This document shows positions 5,149 to 45,267 of a stretch of 46,230 bases of DNA, piece after piece (position 1 is the stretch's first letter; every line of letters starts with the position of its first letter). The DNA is taken from positions 1 through 46,230 of the forward strand of contig JAPLJI010000068.1 in NCBI GenBank assembly GCA_026388655.1, read 5' to 3'. The notes beneath the pieces were generated by a model. It did not search any database, was not told the origin of the DNA, and saw only the letters and a list, made by a program, of their open reading frames with translations. The stretch is from Pseudomonadota bacterium. Lineage in GTDB: Bacteria > Desulfobacterota > JAPLJL01. The translations under genes were made by a program, and so were the position numbers.

Positions 5149-5736
5149 TTATAGGCCCTGGTTCTGCGCATCCCGTTTCTTTTTCAGCTCGTCGTCCAGG
5201 GTATTCAGCATCTCGTTGGTCTTGGCTTCCAGGATGGCCCGTTTCTTCTCTTTCAGGGCCTCCTGGGTCTTGGATTTGATCTGGTTGAGAACGTCATCCA
5301 CCGCCAGCTTGGCCAGCGCGTAAAGCGTCCCATCCGAGTCGGTGAAGTGATCGATGATCTGGCTTCCCACCAGGGTTGCCTCGCTGACGGTCTTGGAAAC
5401 TACCGAGGTAAATTCGTCCGAACCGCCGCCTTCCTTATCCACGAAATCCTGATGTTCCTCCATAAAATCCTTCATGAAAGAAGCCACATAGGTGTTAATA
5501 ACCCGGCCGAGCTCCTGGCGACCCCGGGAATCCGCTTTTTGTCTCTGCATGGCGATGTTCGGTGACTTGGCGGCGATCCCGACTCCGTAAAGAGCCCCGC
5601 CCTGGTCACCCGGGAAAGCGCCCGATCCCTTGATGATCCAATCCGGCTTGGCCGGACCGCCACCGCATCCCACCAGGAAAAGCGACGCCGCGAACACCGC
5701 GCCTGCCACTACCCCAATCAGTCTGGTTACCTTCAT
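5149..5736 (-). CDS. LPP20-family lipoprotein
   Basis: A 195-residue exported lipoprotein. The N-terminus MKVTRLIGVVAGAVFAA is a signal peptide ending in the lipobox LVGC (lipidated Cys24), followed by GGGPAKPDW. The region ALYGVGIAAKSPN...AMQRQKADSRGRQELGRVI matches the LPP20 domain seen in small outer-membrane lipoproteins. The C-terminal 45 residues (KSKTQEALKEKKRAILE...DDELKKKRDAQ) are highly charged and probably a helix or coiled coil. ATG at 5736 is preceded by AAGGAGG at good spacing. An in-frame GTG 84 bases upstream (5820), with its own AAGGAGGTGA, would place a 28-residue extension before the signal peptide, so I do not use it. Monocistronic, with its own terminator. Function of LPP20 proteins is not settled. 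Confidence 0.85.
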   Translation of the reverse strand: MKVTRLIGVVAGAVFAASLFLVGCGGGPAKPDWIIKGSGAFPGDQGGALYGVGIAAKSPNIAMQRQKADSRGRQELGRVINTYVASFMKDFMEEHQDFVDKEGGGSDEFTSVVSKTVSEATLVGSQIIDHFTDSDGTLYALAKLAVDDVLNQIKSKTQEALKEKKRAILEAKTNEMLNTLDDELKKKRDAQNQGL

Positions 5737-5787
5737 TGTTATTCCTCCTTTTCTTAAAAAAACTCCGATTAGCCTAAAACTTGGATT

Positions 5788-5796
5788 ATGATAGCA
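5788..5796 (-). promoter_or_regulatory. Candidate extended -10 promoter for the LPP20 gene
   Basis: On the minus strand TGCTATCAT: extended -10 'TGn' plus TATCAT. No convincing -35 is seen. Transcription would begin about 45 bases before ATG 5736, which would leave the upstream GTG/Shine-Dalgarno pair outside the transcript. Confidence 0.4.
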
Positions 5797-5997
5797 TAAA
5801 AAAGTTGCGAAGTAATCCACTCACCTCCTTTCGCAATAACCCGCTCACCTTCGCTTCCTTAATATTATCGGTAATTTTCCTGAAGATGGAAGTGATGAAA
5901 CTCACACCCTGTCCCGGAACTTTGTTGAGGCTAATCCTAACATAAGTAAAAAGACGTTCCAACATCCGCCATTTATTTTTCGGCAGTCGGCAACGAG

Positions 5998-6095: not shown

Positions 6096-8936
6096 TTATA
6101 GAACCGGGTGAATGTTCGGGTGCATGATCCCAGCCGGATCGATCGTCTTCTTCAGATCTTTGAGCAGGTCGAAATAAACCTTGTGCCGGGGAAGGTGGAT
6201 CTCCCCCACCCCGTGCATGTTCCGGAAGAGCGGCGCGCCCCGGTCCGCCAGGAGCTCGGCGGTTTTGCGGACGAAGATGCTGGCCCGTTTGACCGATTCG
6301 GGATTGCTGTGATCCCACCACCAGTCGAACTCGATCGTGGCGCAGCGCGTGAACTGCAGGGGACCCTGCATCGCCATTCCCGCCAGGGTCATCTCCCGAT
6401 AAACCCGCGGATCGGGGGGGGTCCAGTATTTCGCCCGCAATTCCTTGTATTCCTTCCAAAGTTCCGGAAGTTTTTCCAACTTCACGAACGAGGCGATCCA
6501 CTGGAAGGCGCCCCGGTAGGCCGTCACCCGGTTTCCGAGCACCCCGAGGCCTTTTTTGAAGGTATCGGAATTTACCATGTCCTGCATGTTGAGGGCGGCC
6601 GCGTCCATGAAGAACATCCCATTCCCCTCGATGATTTCCTTGACGATCTCTTCCTTGATTTCCAGTTCCTGGCTGTTGTAGGCCTGGAGCAGGATCGGCA
6701 CCGAGTGGGCCGGCGCCATCTCGGCCACCTCGTCCGCGTTGACTCCGACGATGCCCGCTAAAATCGTGGACGGAACCCCGTGGTGCAGCTTGTAGGTGAA
6801 ATCGATAATGTTCTCCCGGCCGAGCTGGTAGACCGCGTCGATGATTTGCACCAGCGCCTTGTCCTCCTCCGCCCCCGAGGCCGCGGTTAAAAGCAGCTTC
6901 TCGGCGGCAAATTCCGGGAAGAGCTTGATCGTGATCTCGGAGCAGACCCCGAACTGCCCGTCGGCGTTGAAAAACATCCCCGCGATTTCCGGCCCGGGGC
7001 CGTACTGAATCGGGACTTCCTGCGACCCGATCTTGACGATTTCGCCGTCGGGAAGAACCCAGGTCATGTTGACTATCAACTCCGTGTTGCCCCCGTATTT
7101 GACCATGCAGCCCGCCCCGCCCCGGGCGATATAGTTGGCCAGGACCGAAACGCTGGAGAAGGAAAGACACAGAGCTGGTTTTAAAACCACCCCCTCCGCG
7201 ATTTGGTATTTATTCGCGTCCATGAAGAGGGACCGGAGTCTGACCGCCGGTTCAATCGTGGCGGTCAGGGTTTCCGGATCGATGACCGCCCGGTTCATCC
7301 GGCGCAGGTCGAGCAGGATTCCCCCCCGGCGCGGCAGGGCCAAACCGGCATGGTTAAAACCGGTCGAAAACGGGATCACCGGAACCTGGCGCCGGGCGGC
7401 GATCCTCATTATTTTCTGGATCTCCAGGGTAGACTTGGGCAGGGTGACGAGATTGGGAATCACTCCGGAACTGACGCTGAAATCCCGGGCGTAGGGCAGG
7501 AGATCGGCCAGTTGATTGCTCGCCCACTCCTTCCCGACCACTTCCCGTACTTCCCCGAGGATCTCTTCCCAGTTCCTCTCCGGGGGCGGTTCCGCCGCTT
7601 TCGCTTCCGGTTTAACTCCCTGGGGCAGGGAGAGCTGGGGATTAAGAGTGCCCTGGGGATCGAGCAAACCCTTGACCTTCCCCAGCAAATGGGAAAGACC
7701 GGAATTCTGGGCGTAAATCTCTTCGGCCAGTTTTCCTTGGGGCAGATCGAAAAAAGCTCCCGCTTTCCAGAGGGACCGGCTGGCCTCCTCGATAAATTCC
7801 GGGGAAACCCCTTTTTCAAAAATATCGTAAATCCCGTAAACCGCCCGGCCCCGGTCAATGGAAACCAGGGTCCGGCCCAGGTCGGCCGGTTTACCCCCGG
7901 AACCCTTTTTCAACAACTGTCCAAAAAGCTCATCCATCTGGGCCATTCGCTTAAAGGTGGTGAAAAAGGCGAGATGGAGCGGGGAAAGCGCCATTCCGGC
8001 CTCATCCAGGTAAAGGGCAATCTTTTCCCCGGGAGCAGAGGAAATCACCTTTCCCTCATATTTCTGGGTCAGCTCTTTCACGGTTTCCATCTGCCAGTCC
8101 ACGTGTTTCTTTCTGCCCTCGAAGCCGACCACCATTACCCAGGGAGAGTCCGCCTTGGCGCCAAAGGTTTTTTCGAAAGCCCGGCGGTCAAATCCCAGAT
8201 ATTCCGTCCCGATCTCCAGCACGGGGATCTTTTTCAGGGCCTGTAGCAGCCCGGTCATTTCCGCGAATCCGAAAACCAGGGCCTTCCGGCTCTCGCGTTT
8301 CGGGTAGAGGTAAACACTGGCCCGGCAGACTACCCCGAAGGCATCCTGGGCGGCCAGGTACCAGCGGGAAAAAGACGGCCCCCCGTCTTCCTTCCAATCC
8401 GCCATTTCCTCGTTCATGGCGTGGGACCCGGTCAGGTGGATCCTCCCGTCCGCCAGCGCCACTTTCATGTTGGTTACCTGTACCTCGGGATACTTGGCCG
8501 CGCCCTTGATCACCTCCCGGTTGGCCAGGCTCTCCACTACCGAGCCCGATCCGCCGGCTACGGGAACCCCCACCTTGAAACCCAGGGGATCCAGGACTTT
8601 CCGGAGCTGGTCAAAGGTAACCCCTCTCTGCACGTGCGCCATCAGGTTCCGGGAGTCCACCCTTTCAATCTGGTTCATCTTCTGGAAGTCAATGGCCACC
8701 CCTTCCGCCTGCGCGACGGATTCCGGAAAGAATTGAAAATATTTTGTATAAACGGAAACCCGGTGTTCCCGGGCCCAGGGCAGAAGTTTCTGGACTTCTT
8801 CCGCCCGGTCGGGTTGAACCGCCAGCAACCGGGAGGCTTCGACCGGCCGGGCGAAAAGACCGCCGATCTGTTCCTTTCGGGAAATGACCCGGTCCTTCCC
8901 CATGATTTCCAGAAGCGCTTTCGTTTCGATCCCCAT
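6096..8936 (-). CDS. Tandem fusion of two FAD-linked (VAO/PCMH-type) oxidoreductase modules
   Basis: A 946-residue protein, about twice the family length. Residues 1-440 form one complete VAO-fold unit, with an 'AGGSGSVVESLA' FAD-loop equivalent and the C-terminal signature KGLLDPQGTLNP at about 423-433. A Pro/Ala/Glu-rich linker (441-455) follows. Residues 456-946 form a second unit: PKSTLEIQKIMRIAARRQVPV, GGILLDLRRMN, a TATIEPAVRLRSL segment, WVLPDGEIVKIG, FGVCSEITIKLFP, and the terminal TIDPAGIMHPNI. Such units oxidise 2-hydroxyacids, alkyl-DHAP, cresols or similar substrates with bound FAD. The N-terminal unit resembles the separate oxidase at 13163 and the C-terminal unit resembles the one at 10117. 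Last gene of a five-gene operon; GGGAG ribosome site. Substrate unknown. Confidence 0.85.
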   Translation of the reverse strand: MGIETKALLEIMGKDRVISRKEQIGGLFARPVEASRLLAVQPDRAEEVQKLLPWAREHRVSVYTKYFQFFPESVAQAEGVAIDFQKMNQIERVDSRNLMAHVQRGVTFDQLRKVLDPLGFKVGVPVAGGSGSVVESLANREVIKGAAKYPEVQVTNMKVALADGRIHLTGSHAMNEEMADWKEDGGPSFSRWYLAAQDAFGVVCRASVYLYPKRESRKALVFGFAEMTGLLQALKKIPVLEIGTEYLGFDRRAFEKTFGAKADSPWVMVVGFEGRKKHVDWQMETVKELTQKYEGKVISSAPGEKIALYLDEAGMALSPLHLAFFTTFKRMAQMDELFGQLLKKGSGGKPADLGRTLVSIDRGRAVYGIYDIFEKGVSPEFIEEASRSLWKAGAFFDLPQGKLAEEIYAQNSGLSHLLGKVKGLLDPQGTLNPQLSLPQGVKPEAKAAEPPPERNWEEILGEVREVVGKEWASNQLADLLPYARDFSVSSGVIPNLVTLPKSTLEIQKIMRIAARRQVPVIPFSTGFNHAGLALPRRGGILLDLRRMNRAVIDPETLTATIEPAVRLRSLFMDANKYQIAEGVVLKPALCLSFSSVSVLANYIARGGAGCMVKYGGNTELIVNMTWVLPDGEIVKIGSQEVPIQYGPGPEIAGMFFNADGQFGVCSEITIKLFPEFAAEKLLLTAASGAEEDKALVQIIDAVYQLGRENIIDFTYKLHHGVPSTILAGIVGVNADEVAEMAPAHSVPILLQAYNSQELEIKEEIVKEIIEGNGMFFMDAAALNMQDMVNSDTFKKGLGVLGNRVTAYRGAFQWIASFVKLEKLPELWKEYKELRAKYWTPPDPRVYREMTLAGMAMQGPLQFTRCATIEFDWWWDHSNPESVKRASIFVRKTAELLADRGAPLFRNMHGVGEIHLPRHKVYFDLLKDLKKTIDPAGIMHPNIHPVL

Positions 8937-9012
8937 GGTTATTCTCCCTTAATCTACTTGCCCATTTATTTTTCGGCTCACTACTGTCTGATTAGATTTT
9001 TTCCGGCGGCAC

Positions 9013-10077
9013 CTAAAGTTTCTCCAAAACGTTTATCATCGGATAGTTTTCCACGCCGGGGATCGCCAGTTTTCCCGACTGAAGAAAAAACTTTTTCAGG
9101 CCCTCAGAACCCTTAACCAAAAACTGCTCGTTGAGCCTGGACCGAAGCGGGATCCGTTCCAAGATCCTGCGGGCGATCCAGTTTTTCTTCCAGTTCCGGG
9201 TGTAAAATTTGAAATCCCGGAGCGCCTTCTCCCGGTTTTCCACCGCCAAGGCGACCACCTTGCCGGAAATAATGGCCCCGACAATCCCGAAAAGCAGCGC
9301 GGGATCCATCATCCCCGCGAGCGTCCCGGCCAGGATTTTGTCCTCGACGAAAAGCCGGGGATTGCGCACGGAGGCCATCGGCACCTGGTTTTCGATGTAA
9401 AACCACTCTTTCAGGTCGAGCCCCTCCCGCTCCGCCAGGTAATCCTGGCAACGTTTCACCGCGTCGCGGGAAACCGGTTTCTTCCGTTGGAAGATCAACC
9501 CGAAGAAAACACCGTTAATAATACCGTGGTAGTAATATTCCCCGATGTAGTCGTCAAAGTAGACGAGGTACTCGTTGGGCTTGTCCGACTCAAAGCGGGC
9601 GGCGTAACCGTAGACCCCCTGGGAGGGCACCCGGAGTGATTCGAACATCTCCGGGAAAAGCCCGGTAGCGATGATGCTCCCCGGGGGCAGTTCCTGATGG
9701 TTTCTGATCTCCCGGGAAAACTCGAAGCGCACCCCCGCCTTTTGGGCCTCGCGAAAGAGAAAAATGTCGATCGAGCTTTCCCGACTGCCCCGCTCAATCC
9801 CGTACATGCCGGTGGCGGAGATCCGGTAGCCACGCTTCCCGAAATAAGCCCGAAAATTCTGAGCCTCATGGAAATGCCCGGAAAGATCGATCCCGACATA
9901 GTCCTTGATAATTCTCATGTCCACCGGGGTAGCGTGCACGGAAGGATGAAAGACCCCGGCCCCGCCGATCTGTTTGGATTTGTCGAGGATCAGAACGTCG
10001 TAGCCCTGCCGGGCCAGGTTGATCCCGGCCACCATCCCCGAAAGACCCGCCCCCAGAATATGAATCTTCTTACCCAT
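9013..10077 (-). CDS. FAD/NAD(P)-binding flavoprotein oxidoreductase
   Basis: A 354-residue protein with an N-terminal Rossmann dinucleotide-binding motif GAGLSGMVAG (9-18), acidic end DK (32-33) and GGAG (38-41), as in amine-oxidase, protoporphyrinogen-oxidase and geranylgeranyl-reductase-like flavoproteins. A second FAD-contact segment, TLAGMMDPALLFGIVGAIISGKVVA, lies at about 252-276 (the 'GD..G...P..G.GI..A..SG..AA' region). The GD of the canonical motif is replaced by GT/GM. It lies between the two FAD oxidase genes with short gaps (39 and 76 bases), so it is probably part of the same complex or pathway. Could pass electrons from the oxidase subunits or modify a lipid. Exact role not recognisable. 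Confidence 0.75.
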   Translation of the reverse strand: MGKKIHILGAGLSGMVAGINLARQGYDVLILDKSKQIGGAGVFHPSVHATPVDMRIIKDYVGIDLSGHFHEAQNFRAYFGKRGYRISATGMYGIERGSRESSIDIFLFREAQKAGVRFEFSREIRNHQELPPGSIIATGLFPEMFESLRVPSQGVYGYAARFESDKPNEYLVYFDDYIGEYYYHGIINGVFFGLIFQRKKPVSRDAVKRCQDYLAEREGLDLKEWFYIENQVPMASVRNPRLFVEDKILAGTLAGMMDPALLFGIVGAIISGKVVALAVENREKALRDFKFYTRNWKKNWIARRILERIPLRSRLNEQFLVKGSEGLKKFFLQSGKLAIPGVENYPMINVLEKL

Positions 10078-10116
10078 GGAGATTTTCCTTCTTCCGTATT
10101 TTTACCTTTTTACTTT

Positions 10117-11763
10117 TTACTTAATTTTGACATCCTTGGTCAGGAGCCCGGCCCCGTACCACGAGCGGTCGGAGACGTCGTTGGGGTCAAAGGCCCTTTT
10201 GATTCTCTCCTGCCAGAGATGGAAATTCCCGTAATGGGGCCCCATATCCATGATCCGCTGCTGGGGGGATTTCTCGTAGTCCCCGCAGGTCAGCCCGATG
10301 TCGTTGGGCTCGAAGCCGGATTTTTCCAGCCGGCGCTGGTTCCGCTCGTCGGAAAGGCACTGGCGGGAAGCGTTCACCGACTCCGGGTTGGAGGCGTCGT
10401 AATGGAATTCCATTTCCATGTAAACATAGGCGTTATTTTCAAATGAATTGTAGTAGGTGGAATCCGCCCCGTCGTCCAGGATTTTCCCGCTCTTCGCCCA
10501 TTTCCCCTTGATTTCCTCCTGGGGGATCCCCATGTGCCTCACCACCGACTCGTTGGTTCCCATGTACCCGGAACTGATCACGAAACCGCCGGCGTGGTGG
10601 ATGAAGAGGGTGCAATTCCCGAACAGGGCTACCGGCATTTGTTTCATCATTATATCCTTCATCGGCCCTTCGGTCATCACCTCCAGGATCTTCCCCCCGG
10701 TCTCCTTAACGATCTCGGACATCACCTTTTTCCGGTACTCAAACTCGCGCCGGGAGTTGGCGAAGATCATCACCGTGCAGGGATGTTTCATCTCCTCGGC
10801 CATGGCCTGGACCAGCCCGGTGGAATAAAACTGCTCGTACATCTCTTTGTTCGAGATAGCCCCCATCAGGGAGAACATGTGCTCGGCGCCCCCCACCCGC
10901 ATCATCGCGTAGGCGAGTTCCGCATCCCCCACCTGGTAAAAGAAATCGATCATCTGCTCATAAGTATCAAAACAGGGGGCGACAATTTCCAGGAATTCCG
11001 GGATCTCCTTCAAAAGGTAAGCGGTCATCATTCCGCCTGGCTCCGTCTCGAGCTTGGGCGGGCCCGGCCAGTGGTGGAGCTTGATCGCGCCCTTGGTGAA
11101 AACCCCCATTCCCCCCTGGGCCCCGCAATGTCCCCGCATCACGCCCCGGAGGGAAGGCCCCGGCCCGTCCCCGGTAAACCATTCCCCGGGGGGCCCGAGC
11201 TTGAGCAGGTCGCCGGTGGGGAGCACCCACTCGATCCCCAAGGCGTTCCGGCCGTTGTGGCCGCCGTGATTGCCGAAAGTGTTCATCCCCCAGCCCGAGG
11301 TCAGGTTGGCCAGCACCGAGGCCTGGGAACCGGCCTGGACGGGGGTGGTGAAAAGCCCGCGCTTGATCACCTCGGCCTCGAGCTGGGCCCAGGTAACATA
11401 GGGCTCGACCACGGCGAACTTGTTCTTCTCGTCGATCTCCAGGATCCGGTCCATCCGCCGGAGATCCAGCACCACCACCCCGGGCTGTCCAGGGAGGGAG
11501 TGGGACCCGTAACCGGTGGAAAGGGCCTTGAACTTGATCCCGTAGCGATTGCAGGCCCGGACGATCGCCTGCACCTCCTCGGTGCTCCCGGGGAGAAGCA
11601 CCGCCTCCGGGTGGTGGGGCAGGAATTTTCCCGGGGCGCAGAGGTTGTTGAACTCGTTCAGCCAGGTGAAGGTGTAGGTTTCCAGGATCGCCGGGTCGTC
11701 GGAGATATTCACCGAGCCCACGATGTTGGCGAACATTTTATAAATATGCGGTGCTAATGCCAT
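10117..11763 (-). CDS. FAD-binding oxidase (VAO/PCMH family), GlcD-like
   Basis: A 548-residue flavoprotein. The FAD-binding PCMH domain covers about residues 45-230: PGSTEEVQAIVRACNRYGI, LSTGYGSHSL, GVVVLDLRRMDRIL, FAVVEPYVTWAQLEAEV, the glycine-rich GSQASVLANLTSGWG, then GIEWVLPTGDLLKLG, GPGPSLRGV and GGMGVFTKGAIKLH. The C-terminal substrate domain follows. The ending DPNDVSDRSW departs from the usual DP...LNPGK tail. Strong AGGAGG before ATG 11763. It is followed 39 bases on by the FAD/NAD(P) flavoprotein and preceded by the CCG Fe-S protein, an arrangement like glycolate or lactate oxidase GlcD-GlcF. It therefore probably oxidises an organic acid or alcohol and hands electrons to the Fe-S partner. 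Confidence 0.85.
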   Translation of the reverse strand: MALAPHIYKMFANIVGSVNISDDPAILETYTFTWLNEFNNLCAPGKFLPHHPEAVLLPGSTEEVQAIVRACNRYGIKFKALSTGYGSHSLPGQPGVVVLDLRRMDRILEIDEKNKFAVVEPYVTWAQLEAEVIKRGLFTTPVQAGSQASVLANLTSGWGMNTFGNHGGHNGRNALGIEWVLPTGDLLKLGPPGEWFTGDGPGPSLRGVMRGHCGAQGGMGVFTKGAIKLHHWPGPPKLETEPGGMMTAYLLKEIPEFLEIVAPCFDTYEQMIDFFYQVGDAELAYAMMRVGGAEHMFSLMGAISNKEMYEQFYSTGLVQAMAEEMKHPCTVMIFANSRREFEYRKKVMSEIVKETGGKILEVMTEGPMKDIMMKQMPVALFGNCTLFIHHAGGFVISSGYMGTNESVVRHMGIPQEEIKGKWAKSGKILDDGADSTYYNSFENNAYVYMEMEFHYDASNPESVNASRQCLSDERNQRRLEKSGFEPNDIGLTCGDYEKSPQQRIMDMGPHYGNFHLWQERIKRAFDPNDVSDRSWYGAGLLTKDVKIK

Positions 11764-11801
11764 TGGCCTTCCTCCTTATTGTTTTTTACGCTTTGTTCCT
11801 A

Positions 11802-11824
11802 AACTGCTGGACTGTTGGTCTGCT
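11802..11824. repeat. Short iterated CTGYTGG words
   Basis: Three near-copies of a CTGCTGG-type word in the 79-base gap between two operon genes. A one-sided small example of the iterated-word sequences seen at 17718, 19428 and 24456. Confidence 0.45.
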
Positions 11825-11842
11825 GGTCTATTCACTTCTTTC

Positions 11843-13123
11843 TCATTCCACCGACTGGATCAGGAGATCCACCGCGTCCACCACCTTGAGCTCGCTATCC
11901 GAGGCCCGGATCCCATCCTCGAAGTTTTTCTCGCACCAGGGACAGCAGGAGACAATCGTCTCCGCCCCGGTGGCTCGGGCCTCTTCCAGCCGTTCCTTGA
12001 CCGTGTCCATCGCGAGCTCGGGGTAGGCCGACTTCACCCCTCCCCCCGACCCGCAGCACCAGGAGTATTCCCTCCGCCGCTCCATCTCGAGGAGCTTCAG
12101 GCCCGGGATGCTTCTCAGCACCTCCCGGGGCGGGTCATAAATCCCGTTCATCCCCATCACCTTGGGGATATCCTTGATCGGCATCGTGCCCAGGACATAA
12201 TACTCCTTCCCGTGGGAGGGAATCCGGGTATCCGACATTCTCCCCAGGTGGCAGGGATCATGGTAGGTAATGGCCATGGAAACCTCTTTGCTGGGTTTCA
12301 GCTTTCCTGCCTTGATCAGCTCGTTGAGGAATTCGATCGAGTGCTGCACCTCGAATTTCATCTCCGGGCCTACCCGGGGATACTTGGACTTGATCAGCCC
12401 GAAGCAGCCGGCGCAGGAGGTGACCACCTTCTTCACCCCCAGCTGGTTGAAGGTGTTGATGTTCTCGGTGGCCGTCTTCACGAATAATTCCTCGTCCCCC
12501 ACCATGAAGGCCGGGCTGGCGCAGCACTTCTCGTTCGCCCCCAGGGTGCCGAAATCCACTCCCGCCTTGTTGAAGAGAACAGCGGTGTTCTTGGCCACCC
12601 GGCGCATCTCAGGATCGAGGGAGTAAGTGCAGCCCACGAAATAGAGCACCTCCGCCTTTTCCTGGTTCAGGTCCTTGATCTTGAGCCCCTTGGCCCAGTC
12701 GGTCCGCTTCCGCCGGGGCTGCATCCAGACGTTGTCGTAGGACTTAATGCTCTCCACGATGGAAACATGGGGAGCGAGCCGGTTTTTTTCGCCTTTCTGC
12801 CAGGCGTCGATCCGGAACTCGTGCAAAACCTCCCAGAGTTCCTGGTCCGTCCCCACCTTGCAGGAAAGGTCGCACATCCCACAGAGGGTGCAGTTGTAAA
12901 GAATCTCTATCACCTTGGGTGAGTAGCCGATCCGCCCTTCCAGGAGTGAAAGCGCCATGATCAGCTTGCCGCTCGCCGAAAAAGCGTGGAAATTATGCTT
13001 GGCGATCGCCGGGCACCCCTGGGCGAAACGCCAGCTCTTCAAGAGGGACGAGATGGGGATAAATTTGCAGGTGGAGCACCTGACACATCGCATCATATCC
13101 TTTTTATAATCTACCAAAGCCAT
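11843..13123 (-). CDS. Fe-S protein with two 4Fe-4S clusters and two CCG domains (GlcF/HdrD-like)
   Basis: A 426-residue electron-transfer subunit. Two N-terminal 4Fe-4S motifs are visible: C13-C16-C19 with C37P, and C78-C81-C84-C88 (CTLCGMCDLSC). Two cysteine-rich CCG domains follow. The first has C165...C200C201 (CCA rather than CCG) and SCAGC (C237, C240). The second has C291...CCG (C356-C357) and CCPWC (C394, C397). CCG domains bind noncubane or [4Fe-4S] centres in heterodisulfide reductase HdrD/HdrB, GlcF, LutA and SdhE. No membrane helix is seen. GGGAGGAA ribosome site before ATG. Placed between two FAD oxidase genes, it is the natural electron acceptor for them; the final acceptor (quinone, disulfide, ETF or another) is not encoded nearby. 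Confidence 0.9.
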   Translation of the reverse strand: MALVDYKKDMMRCVRCSTCKFIPISSLLKSWRFAQGCPAIAKHNFHAFSASGKLIMALSLLEGRIGYSPKVIEILYNCTLCGMCDLSCKVGTDQELWEVLHEFRIDAWQKGEKNRLAPHVSIVESIKSYDNVWMQPRRKRTDWAKGLKIKDLNQEKAEVLYFVGCTYSLDPEMRRVAKNTAVLFNKAGVDFGTLGANEKCCASPAFMVGDEELFVKTATENINTFNQLGVKKVVTSCAGCFGLIKSKYPRVGPEMKFEVQHSIEFLNELIKAGKLKPSKEVSMAITYHDPCHLGRMSDTRIPSHGKEYYVLGTMPIKDIPKVMGMNGIYDPPREVLRSIPGLKLLEMERRREYSWCCGSGGGVKSAYPELAMDTVKERLEEARATGAETIVSCCPWCEKNFEDGIRASDSELKVVDAVDLLIQSVE

Positions 13124-13162
13124 GGGTTCCTCCCTTGCTAAGCGTCCAATGAACTTGCCTGA

Positions 13163-14623
13163 CTAAAAACAGAGCTTCCCCGGGTTCAGGATATTTTTCG
13201 GATCGAAAACCCCCTTCACCCTTTTCATGGCATTTACGAACTCGGTATTCTGCGAGTAAACCATCTGAGCCCAGGAACCGTAGGGCCGGGAGAAGAAAGC
13301 CCCCTGCTTCTGGAAGGCCAGGCTGGCTTTCTCGATCAGGCCGCGGATCCGGGCTTTTTCCCGGGCGTCGCCCTGGGGACAGGGGAAATCAAACCCGAGA
13401 TGGCAGCTGGTGCCCTGCACCACCGGCTGGATGTAAATCCCGATCTGGGAAGCCGGGTAATTCTCCTGGACCGCCATCTCCCGGAGCGCCGGGATAAAGG
13501 ATTCCACCCGGTTCAGGGTAGTGATAAAGAAGAGCTCGTAATTCTCGCCCCCGTAACGCAGCTTCCAGTACGGCTCCGGAGAGGCATTGCGGATCACCCG
13601 GAGCAAGACCTCGGCTTTGACCTCTCCCAGGGATTGCCCGGGGGTAAGCCCCTCCTTCTGGGTAATTTCAAAGAGATCCTTTTCTTGATAATCAACCTTC
13701 TCTTCCGGGTGACGGTTGTAGCCGCAAACCGTGAAGACCAGGATCCAGGGCGGCAGGGTTCTGACCAGCTTGTCAATCCCTTCCCGGTTGGGGGCGAGGA
13801 GGGAAGCCAGGGTGAAGTTGTTCAGGAGAAACACCTCATCCCCGAGATCCAGGCGGATCAGCCGGTAAGCCACCTCGATCAGGCGCTCCAGGCGGGTATC
13901 GGAAAGAAAATAGAGCTTGTCGATCACCGGGTAGAGTTCGCACTTGATCGAGGCCCAGGTGGCAATCCCGATGGTGCCCTGGGCTCCCTGGATAAGCTTG
14001 TGATAATCAACCTGGTGCGGCCCGAGTGGAAATTTCTGCGCGCCCCCGATCTGCCATTGTCCCTGCAGGCCGCCGGGGCCCGAAGCCTCGCCGGTCTGGA
14101 AAACCTCTCCCGTCCCGAAAACCACTTCCAGGCAGAGAAGGGGATCGGCGGCATCCCAGTGATGCCGTGGGATAATCACCGGTTCCCGCTCGAGCCCGCT
14201 CGCGAGGACCGACTTGTTGGCCCGGGGCGCGAGCGGCAGGTTCAACCGCAGGCCTTCCTTCTTTAATTCCGGGATCAGCTGGCTGAAAGTGACGCCGGTC
14301 TCAATTACCGCGACCCGGTTTTTCCGGTTGATCCGAAGGATCTCGTTCATGCCGCTGAGATCAACCACTACCCCTCCGACCGAGGGGACCGTGTCCCCGC
14401 GGCTGTGCGGCGCTCCGGAGCTCACCGGGACCAGGGGCACATTCGCCTGGTTGGCCCAGGCGACGATCCCCTGGATGTCTTTCGCTCCCTTGGGTTTGGC
14501 CAGCAAATCCGGAGAGCGGGAAGGGACAAAACTCATGTCCCCCGCCAACGCGGCGATTACCTCCGGGTCATCGGAAACCCGGTCCGCCCCGATCAGGCCG
14601 CCGACTTCCTGTTTAAGATTCAT
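13163..14623 (-). CDS. FAD-binding oxidase (VAO/PCMH family), first gene of the redox operon
   Basis: A 486-residue flavoprotein with PCMH domain features: DLLAKPKGAKDIQGIVAWAN, VPVSSGAPHSRGD, GVVVDLSGMNEIL, RVAVIETGVTFSQLIPEL, CLEVVFGTGEVF and GAQGTIGIATWASIKC. The C-terminal signature VFDPKNILNPGKLCF is in full consensus form. Its C-terminal end (GAFF..P.GS.A...Y.QN......RVKG..DP...LNP) aligns well by eye with residues 393-433 of the 946-residue fusion, suggesting they are paralogues. GGGAGG ribosome site at good spacing before ATG 14623. Only 39 bases separate it from the CCG protein. Substrate unknown; a 2-hydroxyacid or a similar oxidisable alcohol is typical for the family. Confidence 0.85.
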   Translation of the reverse strand: MNLKQEVGGLIGADRVSDDPEVIAALAGDMSFVPSRSPDLLAKPKGAKDIQGIVAWANQANVPLVPVSSGAPHSRGDTVPSVGGVVVDLSGMNEILRINRKNRVAVIETGVTFSQLIPELKKEGLRLNLPLAPRANKSVLASGLEREPVIIPRHHWDAADPLLCLEVVFGTGEVFQTGEASGPGGLQGQWQIGGAQKFPLGPHQVDYHKLIQGAQGTIGIATWASIKCELYPVIDKLYFLSDTRLERLIEVAYRLIRLDLGDEVFLLNNFTLASLLAPNREGIDKLVRTLPPWILVFTVCGYNRHPEEKVDYQEKDLFEITQKEGLTPGQSLGEVKAEVLLRVIRNASPEPYWKLRYGGENYELFFITTLNRVESFIPALREMAVQENYPASQIGIYIQPVVQGTSCHLGFDFPCPQGDAREKARIRGLIEKASLAFQKQGAFFSRPYGSWAQMVYSQNTEFVNAMKRVKGVFDPKNILNPGKLCF

Positions 14624-14964: not shown

Positions 14965-15681
14965 CTACACCCTAGTCACGGAAAAATACCGGTCAGGAGG
15001 CAGACCGGTAGACACCACCGCACCCGGGCAGAGCACCACCAGTTTTTCTTCGAACTGATCCCCGAGCAAATCAAAAAGCTCCACACAGGCGGAGCAGACC
15101 CGGAGCGTTGAACCGAGCGAATAGGGAATCTTTTTCCCTTCCCGCTCGAGATAAAACCCGGGCTCGATAAAATTGGCATGGTTAGCGCAATGACCGGGGA
15201 AAACCGAATCGAAAGCCTCCTCTGACTCCTCGGGGGTGGCCAAGCCAAGTTTCAAAAGCCCCTGCCTGAAAAGCCGGAACTGTTCCCGGTCAAAGCCATC
15301 GATCGTCTCCCATTCGACCGGTTTGACCTTGAGGTAAGCGGGCGATTGAGCCAGCATCCTTACTTCTTCCAGGTTTGGCCGTTGGCAAAGCTGGAAATCG
15401 CTCGGCGCGATTTTTACCCCCCGCCGCCCTTCCAGAGGAAAACTTGTTACCACCAGGATTTCACCCTTATGGCTTGAGGACCGGTACCATGAACCCTGAC
15501 GGCGGCAGTTTTTGTTCCAGACCTCGGGAAGGGCGATCCCGGCCTCCCGCTGGGGATGGAGAAGTTCACAGACCATCCGCCGGGCCCGATAAATTTTCAC
15601 CGCTCTGGCCTTCAAGCCCGCCTCCTCCTCAATAAATTCTTCCGGGCTTAAAAAATATGCGTATTTAACGTATGGGTTCAT
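14965..15681 (-). CDS. Unrecognised protein with a Cys/His-containing C-terminal half
   Basis: A 238-residue soluble protein that I do not recognise. It has no signal peptide or membrane helix. The N-terminal half is rich in Arg/Lys; the C-terminal half has a possible metal site: H164, C165 and H168 (GHCANH), C196 and C199 (CSAC) and C218. The Cys pattern does not fit a ferredoxin. ATG 15681 lacks a clear ribosome site. It is on the same strand as the amidohydrolase upstream (92-base gap) and the redox operon downstream (341-base gap with a repeat element), so it may or may not be co-transcribed. Confidence 0.7.
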   Translation of the reverse strand: MNPYVKYAYFLSPEEFIEEEAGLKARAVKIYRARRMVCELLHPQREAGIALPEVWNKNCRRQGSWYRSSSHKGEILVVTSFPLEGRRGVKIAPSDFQLCQRPNLEEVRMLAQSPAYLKVKPVEWETIDGFDREQFRLFRQGLLKLGLATPEESEEAFDSVFPGHCANHANFIEPGFYLEREGKKIPYSLGSTLRVCSACVELFDLLGDQFEEKLVVLCPGAVVSTGLPPDRYFSVTRV

Positions 15682-15773: not shown

Positions 15774-16595
15774 TCATAGGTTAAAAAGACCCCGGGCGTT
15801 TTCCTCGAGAAGCCGGGAGCGGGATTCATCCTTGAGCGGAATTTCTTTTAGTTCATCCAGGATCCTCTTTCGGGAAAGCAAAGGGTGATCCGAACCGAGC
15901 AAGGCCTTTCTCGATAAAGGCCCGTTGATATACTGGATCACCATCTCGGGAATGTAACGGGGGGCCCAGCCGGCGATGTTGAAATAAACGTTCTGATTCC
16001 GCTGGCAGATGGCCAGGGCCTCGGCGAACCAGGGAAAACCGAAATGGGCCAGGATGATCTTCAGGTTCGGAAAATCCACCGCCACCTCGTCCAGGGGAAG
16101 AGGCAGACAGTATTTGAGCTTTTTACCCAGGTGGTAGTGCGTGCCGGTGTGAAAGAGCACGGGGAGGCCGAGTTCCTGGGCCGCTTCGTAGACGGGATAG
16201 AAAAGCCGGTCGTCCGGATTGAGTTCGAGAAGATGAGGAATGAACTTGAGACCCTTGAGCTTTAGTTCTCGCGCCAGCCTCTCCACCTCCCGGACCGCCA
16301 GCACTCCTTTATGCGGATCCACGCTCCCCAGGCCGATCAACCTGCCTGGATATTTTTCCACCGCCTGGGCGACCAGGTCGTTGGGAATCCGGTAGCCGGA
16401 AACCGTCTCGGCGTCGATTGCCACCACCACTGATTTTTCGACCCCGGCGGCATCCATGTCCGCAAGCGTGTCTTCCGGGGCACCCTTGGCGAAAAAGAAG
16501 CCGTACCCCAGCGCGTCCATGCCGGGGATCTCCCCCCGGTTGAAAAGATCAATCAACTCGCGGGTGAAAAGCTGGGCATGCGTATCAATAATCAT
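15774..16595 (-). CDS. Amidohydrolase 2-family metal-dependent hydrolase/decarboxylase
   Basis: A 273-residue TIM-barrel protein of the amidohydrolase-2 group (relatives are ACMSD, gamma-resorcylate decarboxylase and 2-pyrone-4,6-dicarboxylate hydrolase). Visible elements: DTHAQ at 4-8, GLGSVDP, LKGLKFIPH, LFHTGTH (H149), ILAHFG (H184) and LGSDHP (metal/catalytic Asp236). The usual N-terminal metal motif is DxHxH. Here the second His is Gln8, so metal binding is probably altered. ATG start at 16595 encodes MIIDTHAQLF, typical of the family. It may act on the same substrate family as the redox operon downstream, but that is only inferred from its position. Confidence 0.85.
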   Translation of the reverse strand: MIIDTHAQLFTRELIDLFNRGEIPGMDALGYGFFFAKGAPEDTLADMDAAGVEKSVVVAIDAETVSGYRIPNDLVAQAVEKYPGRLIGLGSVDPHKGVLAVREVERLARELKLKGLKFIPHLLELNPDDRLFYPVYEAAQELGLPVLFHTGTHYHLGKKLKYCLPLPLDEVAVDFPNLKIILAHFGFPWFAEALAICQRNQNVYFNIAGWAPRYIPEMVIQYINGPLSRKALLGSDHPLLSRKRILDELKEIPLKDESRSRLLEENARGLFNL

Positions 16596-43749: not shown

Positions 43750-45267
43750 TTGAAATTCAAAACTCCGATATTTCCGGCCCTGATCCGCCTTTATCTGCTC
43801 CCTTCCCTGCTCCTGGCCGGGATCTGCTTCGGCCCGGCCTGGGCCCAGGAGGAGGAACCCCCCGCCCCGGAGCCTTCCTTTTCGAGCGGAACCGAAAGTG
43901 CCCGGCTGGGGGGGTTTTTCAATTCCAATCTGGGCATCCAAACCTATTTTGATAACTCCCGGGAGAATATTGTTGAGTTCCGGAATGGTTTTTTCCTGAA
44001 AGGCGACTTCGATCCCCGGACCAATCTTCACTGGACCTTGTCAGGCCGTTTTTCCTATAAAGCCTCTTCCACTGAAGAAGGAGATTTTTCCTACTATTAC
44101 CAGCCCGAGCTCTTTGAAGCCTATGCCAACCTGAACCTGGGTAAATTGGACCTTAAACTGGGCCAGCAGGTCGCCCGCTGGGGCCGGGCGGATTTGAGCC
44201 CGACTGATAATCTGAATCCGGCGGATCTTCGGGATTTTATTTTTACCGAACCCGAGTTCGCCAAGCTTCCCATTCTCATGGCCCGGGCCAAATATTTTCT
44301 CGGGGACTTCAATATCGAAGGCATTTATATTCCCTTCTATGAACCGATCCGTATGCCTCCGGCCGGCGACAACTGGTTCATTATGACCCCCCGCATGATC
44401 AACGCCTACATCCAGAGATATCCGGAGCAAACCTTTGCCGGGGTTCAAGACACCCTGATCCAGGTTGACAACACCGATTACCCCAAGTTCAGCCCGCAAA
44501 ACGGAGAGGCCGGGCTCCGGGTTTCCGGTACGCGCGCGGGGTTCGATTTCAGCGTGGACTATCTATATGCCTGGCAGGACTTTTTTCTCCCCCACTTCAA
44601 TCCTGACTTTATCCAGTACGCCCGCGAAAACATGGCCCGATGCCGGGCGGGGAACCGCAACTGTCAGAACGGTGAGGAAATCCTCCTGGATCTCACCCCC
44701 CAGGAACTTTTATTCTATTCCCCTCTTTACCATCTGGGCACCAATCGAACCCACATCCTGGGAGCGGATTTTTCCACGAACTTCCGGAGTTTCGGGATCC
44801 GGGCGGAAGCCGCCTTCCAGGAAAAGATCTCGCTCCTGAACGAGGATTTTTCCCTCACCCGCAAGCCTTTTCTCCAATTCAGCGCGGGGGCCGACCGTCT
44901 TTTCAACGGACGGCATTACCTCAATTTCCAGGTCATGGAAAGCCTGATTTTAAACTGGGGGCAAAAAACCATTAATCCCGTCAACGGCGCCCCGATTAAT
45001 ATTTTCATAATCAAAAGGTCCATCCCCAGTCTGGTGTTTTTTTTCCGGACCTCTTTCGGAGAAGAGGAAGAATTCCAGCCCGAGTTCCGGGCCTCTTATA
45101 ACCCGACATTTGGCGACTATTTGATTAATGTCTTGTTTAATTACAGCTGGAGCGATTCGATTAAACTGGTAGCCGGGGTGGTTTTTTTAAGCGGCCCGTC
45201 GAAAAGTATCTTCGGCAACTATTCTCAGAACGACAGCGCTTATCTGGGTTTCCGTTATAGTTTCTGA
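43750..45267 (+). CDS. Outer-membrane beta-barrel protein (DUF1302/porin-like)
   Basis: A 505-residue protein. Signal peptide RLYLLPSLLLAGICFGPAWA then Q. Barrel-type repeats of alternating aromatic strands, e.g. LHWTLSGRFSYKAS, LDLKLGQQVARWGRADLSP, NLNPADLRDF, NIEGIYIPFYEP, GFDFSVDYLYAWQDFFLP and a terminal AYLGFRYSF with an aromatic last residue. The GQQVARWGRAD...TDNLNP...DF block is like the DUF1302/alginate-export-like porins often coupled to hydrophobic-substrate export in Deltaproteobacteria. TTG 43750 start has no ribosome site and may be wrong by some codons. A DUF1329-type partner is not seen. Confidence 0.8.
   Translation: MKFKTPIFPALIRLYLLPSLLLAGICFGPAWAQEEEPPAPEPSFSSGTESARLGGFFNSNLGIQTYFDNSRENIVEFRNGFFLKGDFDPRTNLHWTLSGRFSYKASSTEEGDFSYYYQPELFEAYANLNLGKLDLKLGQQVARWGRADLSPTDNLNPADLRDFIFTEPEFAKLPILMARAKYFLGDFNIEGIYIPFYEPIRMPPAGDNWFIMTPRMINAYIQRYPEQTFAGVQDTLIQVDNTDYPKFSPQNGEAGLRVSGTRAGFDFSVDYLYAWQDFFLPHFNPDFIQYARENMARCRAGNRNCQNGEEILLDLTPQELLFYSPLYHLGTNRTHILGADFSTNFRSFGIRAEAAFQEKISLLNEDFSLTRKPFLQFSAGADRLFNGRHYLNFQVMESLILNWGQKTINPVNGAPINIFIIKRSIPSLVFFFRTSFGEEEEFQPEFRASYNPTFGDYLINVLFNYSWSDSIKLVAGVVFLSGPSKSIFGNYSQNDSAYLGFRYSF

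Follow-up and report, generated by a model that had tools for sequence, protein, structure and literature searches.

The window analysed here is a 46,230-nucleotide stretch of DNA, contig C169 of a 3.56-Mb genome whose class is represented by three sampled genomes of a single genus. Five minus-strand open reading frames run from 14623 to 6096, separated by 39, 79, 39, and 76 bases when the spacing is recalculated from their coordinates, in agreement with the first-pass annotation of five genes spaced by 39-79 bases. Pfam assigned FAD_binding_4 to V1 and V2 and, twice, to a 946-aa protein, once in each half, and bore out the calls of one CCG Fe-S protein (CCG x2 and Fer4_8) and one FAD/NAD(P)-type flavoprotein (a Rossmann domain, in FADR). 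One CCG gene is therefore accompanied by the same two modules in both separate and fused form, as had been read from the sequence. We refer to V1, CCG, and V2 as the trimer (set A), to the 946-aa protein as the fusion or fused pair (set B), and to its halves as FN and FC. The features of the locus are:

15774..16595, minus strand: Amidohydrolase_2 protein, conserved upstream (96% in both relatives of the genus)
14965..15681, minus strand: 238-aa protein, 341-base gap to V1, conserved directly upstream in 3/3 genomes of the genus
13163..14623, minus strand: V1, 486 aa, 53.6 kDa, VAO/PCMH-type flavoprotein with an FAD-oxidase_C end; first trimer subunit, FAD pyrophosphate loop intact
11843..13123, minus strand: CCG Fe-S protein, 426 aa, 47.8 kDa
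10117..11763, minus strand: V2, 548 aa, 61.1 kDa, VAO/PCMH-type, FAD_binding_4 only; third trimer subunit
9013..10077, minus strand: FADR, 354-aa FAD-Rossmann protein, distantly geranylgeranyl reductase-like
6096..8936, minus strand: fusion, 946 aa; FN is residues 1-442 and FC residues ~451-946
7611..8936, minus strand: FN half, V1-like VAO domain without the FAD pyrophosphate loop
6096..7586, minus strand: FC half, V2-like VAO/PCMH domain with an intact FAD loop, STGFNHAGLALP
5149..5820, minus strand: LPP20-type lipoprotein, the next downstream gene in 3/3 genomes of the genus

Past the LPP20 gene, at 5115-5084, comes a strong hairpin that resembles a terminator and has a T tail; the transcription unit may therefore extend from V1 to LPP20. 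The best NCBIfam relatives of FADR are geranylgeranyl reductases, at low score, and searches of Pfam and NCBIfam with the 238-aa protein returned no match. Elsewhere in the window, positions 43750-45267 of the plus strand encode a DUF1302 outer-membrane-type protein (Pfam, 1.2e-9). The degradation of hydrophobic compounds is accompanied by DUF1302/DUF1329-type proteins. A comparison for the DUF1302 protein is offered by the 'Nanopod' cluster of ORM2a, which includes a DUF1329 protein (PMC13101534).

An assembly join, the alternative named with the first-pass annotation, was ruled out by the recurrence of the fusion in several genomes. In the two other genomes of the genus the amidohydrolase, the 238-aa protein, V1, CCG, and V2 follow one another in the same order (L048, L106), and FADR, the fusion, and LPP20 continue it piecewise, across the pairs L048+L067 and L106+L056. 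V1, CCG, and V2 are 92-97% identical within the genus, and the fusion halves 67-81%. A second family (G001, G041, G077) carries full-length fusions at 40-46% identity; G077 alone has six, four of them on a single 156-kb contig (C246; L057, L090, L092, L093), a large catabolic region in which they lie amid acyl-CoA dehydrogenase, thiolase, AOR, and SDR genes. Elsewhere FN and FC are separate genes (L062, L065, L064, L097, L098, L051), arranged as FN, FC, CCG in L062, as V2, SCP2, FN, CCG, FC in L065, and as V1, CCG, V2, FN, FC in L064, where FC overlaps FN by a few bases. Two assembly irregularities were noted along the way. In the 'single-contig' genome G031, the FC gene is broken into two parts, one near 1602 kb and the other near 2132 kb, next to a stretch of undetermined bases (C1; L064, L063), probably through a scaffolding error; and in G049 contigs C39/C79 and C23/C113 are near-identical duplicates of operon parts, possibly strain variants binned together.

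We compared the VAO units with one another and with solved proteins. By BLAST the best match of FN among the units is V1 (102 bits, 25%) and that of FC is V2 (81 bits, 27%), which upholds the resemblance noted by eye between the N-half and the 13163 oxidase and between the C-half and the 10117 oxidase. A maximum-likelihood tree of 86 rows agrees: V1, V2, FN, and FC form four groups, each across a well-supported branch, with V2 and FC together (support 80) and V1 and FN opposite them, with GlcD-type rows. The proposal of a recent duplication-fusion is therefore right as to duplication and fusion but not as to age, as the four clades are deep, the units only 25-27% identical, and fusions present in two families; a recent duplication is ruled out by the tree, and we conclude from the sequences that the fusion is genuine and old. 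In a profile search of solved proteins, p-cresol methylhydroxylase was the top match for FC (2.7e-41) and for V1 and FN together (3.7e-35); GlcE, considered for the N-half by analogy with GlcDEF, was dropped because this search favoured PCMH.

An AlphaFold2 model of the fusion, built from 29 sequences, has a mean pLDDT of 84 and a pTM of 0.88 over 946 residues, and the model fits a packed two-domain protein. Fold searches matched the FC half to VAO-fold proteins with Z about 28-34 and rmsd about 3, and the V1 model to VAO-fold proteins over its full length with Z about 26-31. Among the matches listed for the fusion only the FC half was covered, so the fold of FN is taken from whole-model confidence, Pfam, the profile search, and the V1 model. 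Assignment to the VAO fold or FAD_binding_4 accordingly comes from the fold search for V1 and FC, from Pfam and the profile for FN, and from Pfam for V2.

The halves of the fusion differ at the FAD pyrophosphate loop, which was compared in an alignment of the V1, V2, FN, and FC groups. V1 proteins typically read SSGxPHFRGD, V2 proteins mostly STG followed by further glycines, and FC proteins STGFNHGGL. The Gly/Ser-rich loop is missing from all members of the FN group (17/17), which have, for example, TxxDRxxLPED or TKYFQFFPES instead, and the mean number of loop glycines is 0.35 in FN versus 2.0-2.6 in V1, V2, and FC. FN is thus predicted to be a degenerate VAO domain without canonical FAD binding, a non-flavin or structural half, and FC the flavin-bearing half. 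The operon had been credited with four VAO-type FAD units; by homology there are four, but with FN lacking the loop it probably has three flavin sites.

The CCG protein of the window has two ferredoxin-type 4-Cys sites (C13-C16-C19-C37 and C78-C81-C84-C88) and two complete CCG motifs (C165/C200C201/C237xxC240 and C291/C356C357/C394xxC397). Its top PDB match is EtfD, and the combination of CCG and 4Fe-4S architecture is shared with mycobacterial EtfD and archaeal HdrB and HdrD, although, in that comparison, no membrane domain is listed for the window protein. The window CCG and HdrB have both CC pairs intact; in EtfD, Cys-Thr takes the place of one pair. CCG-type clusters in EtfD link ETF to the menaquinone pool (PMC13083937).

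CCG proteins fall into two classes according to the pair that they adjoin. In those beside V1-V2, an insert of ~30 residues is found in the interval from C291 to C356 (it is shorter in one trimer locus, L163); those beside FN/FC lack it, and the window CCG, which has it, belongs to the V1-V2 class. A CCG gene of its own adjoins FN/FC in eight loci (L050, L059, L060, L062, L065, L066, L097, L098), in four of which (L050, L059, L060, L066) it follows a fusion, and contig C120 of the window genome holds a second fusion together with an FN/FC-class CCG. These observations suggest that the window contains one complete trimer and a fused pair without a CCG of its own class in the operon. Since fusions elsewhere often have one, the partner appears to be missing here, and the window fusion would either have lost its operon CCG or never had one.

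We then asked how widely the trimer occurs. V1 homologues are present in 53/395 sampled genomes of the phylum. The order V1-CCG-V2 was seen in all 20 further loci inspected, with ETF genes nearby in 8/20, and in L102 EtfB and EtfA sit between V1 and CCG. None of the 20 has FN/FC alongside; the trimer, or V2, is co-located with FN/FC in three families (f1; f3, in L065; f31, in L064). A paralogous V1-CCG-V2 operon (L052, L102; G000:C88, G049:C1) lies near TRAP transporter genes.

The first-pass annotation knew of no described system with this composition. That holds for the fusion, as a description of it, or of a trimer and fused pair together, was not found in the literature searched, but the trimer itself matches ones reported in 2026 (PMC13101534, PMC13416013). 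Proteins 24-26 of ORM2a (Ca. Anaerobenzenivorax) are described as the most abundant proteins of a benzene-grown anaerobe, a role in anaerobic activation of benzene is proposed for them, and the trimer was predicted and modelled as GlcDEF-like (PMC13101534). BzS1_12970/80/90, likewise described as most abundant in a benzene-grown anaerobe, is a putative benzene dehydrogenase, a role that is again proposed (PMC13416013). Set A is likened to this kind of trimer by its order, domains, and size. As in the window, the ORM2a order is FAD oxidoreductase, Hdr-like Fe-S protein, FAD oxidoreductase, and we count as a further likeness the DUF1329 and porin genes elsewhere in the ORM2a genome. With BzS1 the window shares gene order, FAD domains of PCMH type, the restriction of FAD-oxidase_C to the first subunit, and similar subunit sizes (53.6/47.8/61.1 kDa versus 54.5/46.5/65.8 kDa in BzS1); ETF is implicated in BzS1 and also lies beside relatives of the window trimer.

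There are differences as well. Of the 18 conserved cysteines, the window CCG has every one and the ORM2a Fe-S protein is missing some; a fusion is not described in ORM2a; and downstream of the BzS1 trimer lie beta-oxidation genes, as against the GGR-like FAD protein and fused second VAO pair of the window. The 'Magic' cluster of ORM2a is flanked by genes for an AMP-ligase, MaoC, and class III CoA-transferases. AMP-ligase, MaoC dehydratase, and class III CoA-transferase genes were sought in the direct flanks of the window operon and were absent, and for this reason we do not file the window as a benzene cluster. Distant syntenic homologues (23-42%) of the BzS1 trimer occur in the non-benzene users NaphS2 and Desulfosarcina variabilis (PMC13416013), so membership of the group does not imply a benzene substrate.

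In other genomes, aldehyde:ferredoxin oxidoreductase genes lie near FN/FC genes in L061 and L092 and, by sequence similarity, in L065; AMP-ligase genes in L057, L059, L060, and L098; and other neighbours encode long acyl-CoA dehydrogenases, SCP2-type thiolases, SCP2, SDRs, FadL/TodX porins (L055), DUF1329 (L057), and amine-oxidase-like flavoproteins (L055, L065, L092). These genes suggest that hydrophobic compounds are taken up and beta-oxidised. A kinship of the amine-oxidase-like neighbours with CtmAB or steroid delta-24 desaturase, an idea taken from PMC11061730, was dropped because the covalent FMN-His motif was found in none of the proteins of the loci. A FADR homologue lies within about 7 kb of the fusion for 3/6 fusions of G077 and also in L059, and FADR genes recur near fusions in two families; the chance of the G077 proximity is about 4e-5, given eight FN/FC sites in 8.9 Mb and with independence assumed and clustering on one contig ignored. 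dsrA had no match at E <= 0.001 in G000, G049, and G011, so there is no indication that the genus reduces sulphate in the usual way.

From what was observed directly, namely gene order, domains, conservation, clades, loop loss in FN, and CCG classes, we infer flavin content, partners, substrate, and electron path. The explanation that we favour for the whole, and regard as fairly probable, is that two related VAO/PCMH-type sets, the trimer and the fused pair, oxidise a hydrophobic substrate without O2; judging by sequence and neighbours, oxygen-independent dehydrogenation of such a substrate is the most likely use. Sets A and B would act on intermediates that are related or that follow one another, dehydrogenating or activating them, and the substrate is probably cyclic or isoprenoid-like. 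Set B would amount to a covalently joined VAO heterodimer, with the flavin in the C-half and an N-half that has turned structural or regulatory. The flavin would accept two electrons and hand them to the CCG protein, with its two cubane-type and two HdrB-type cluster sites, from which they may pass to ETF or the quinone pool; this path is the simplest reading because ETF genes adjoin trimers. Set B might borrow the operon CCG or use the FN/FC-class CCG encoded on contig C120.

Other readings were weighed against this one. The larger complex on one CCG envisaged in the first-pass annotation would unite V1, V2, and the fusion and couple two half-reactions, possibly by flavin-based electron bifurcation. 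The single CCG gene of the operon did prove to be kept across the genus, sets A and B do share an operon in three families, and related trimers do have ETF genes alongside; however, FN/FC has its own insert-free CCG class in many relatives and 20/20 further set A loci stand without adjoining FN/FC, and we consider such a complex unlikely. Equally doubtful to us is a GlcDEF-like 2-hydroxyacid dehydrogenase with duplicated subunits. E. coli GlcDEF has the subunit logic of set A (two VAO subunits and one CCG Fe-S protein), the structural matches are headed by D-lactate dehydrogenase when ranked by Z, and the ORM2a trimer was modelled on these lines, yet the 57-117 bits obtained with the GlcD model fall short of its 567.9-bit cut-off, profiles place PCMH above GlcD-type entries, the HxxDGNxH and EHGxG metal-site motifs of hydroxyacid enzymes are absent from V1, V2, FN, and FC, and the window has two sets and a fusion.

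A p-alkylphenol hydroxylase, either a true PCMH or a 4-phenol oxidase with an Fe-S protein in place of the cytochrome, seems very improbable even though, among solved proteins, PchF, the PCMH flavoprotein subunit, is closest in sequence to both VAO halves. PchF has a cytochrome partner and a phenolate Tyr95, neither of which was found in the window set: the Tyr95 position falls in a two-residue deletion of the FC profile, and the FC family is without the Tyr before the conserved Arg (PCMH Tyr473-Arg474). With the GlcD metal motifs and the Tyr95 equivalent both missing, neither hydroxyacids nor p-alkylphenols are favoured as substrates. More speculatively, and with little expectation that it will prove right, the trimer and fused pair could carry out a two-stage flavin-based activation of an unactivated hydrocarbon or isoprenoid, the pair, with one flavin half and one flavinless half, performing a second step and sharing the trimer's CCG protein; if true, the enzyme group proposed for benzene activation would gain a new branch with covalent coupling.

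The anaerobic attack on benzene-like hydrocarbons has long lacked an explanation, and the candidates at present are flavin trimers built like this one. What is new here is that a trimer of this recently described kind shares its operon with a VAO pair that is fused and half-degenerate. The spread of the trimer far beyond known benzene degraders widens a poorly understood enzyme group, and a parallel FN/FC pair exists that has its own Fe-S partner class and occurs as a fusion with one half minus the flavin loop. The loss of the loop in FN predicts which subunit does the chemistry, and the single-chain fusion may be easier than the trimer to express and to solve.

Finally, some trimer subunits carry long Lys/Ala/Pro-rich tails (L064, 9876-11825; L052, 8361-9926; L102, 14352-16034). 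The tails are histone-H1-like, unexpected on such enzymes, and are C-terminal on V2 in G031 and N-terminal on V1 in the C88-type paralogues.
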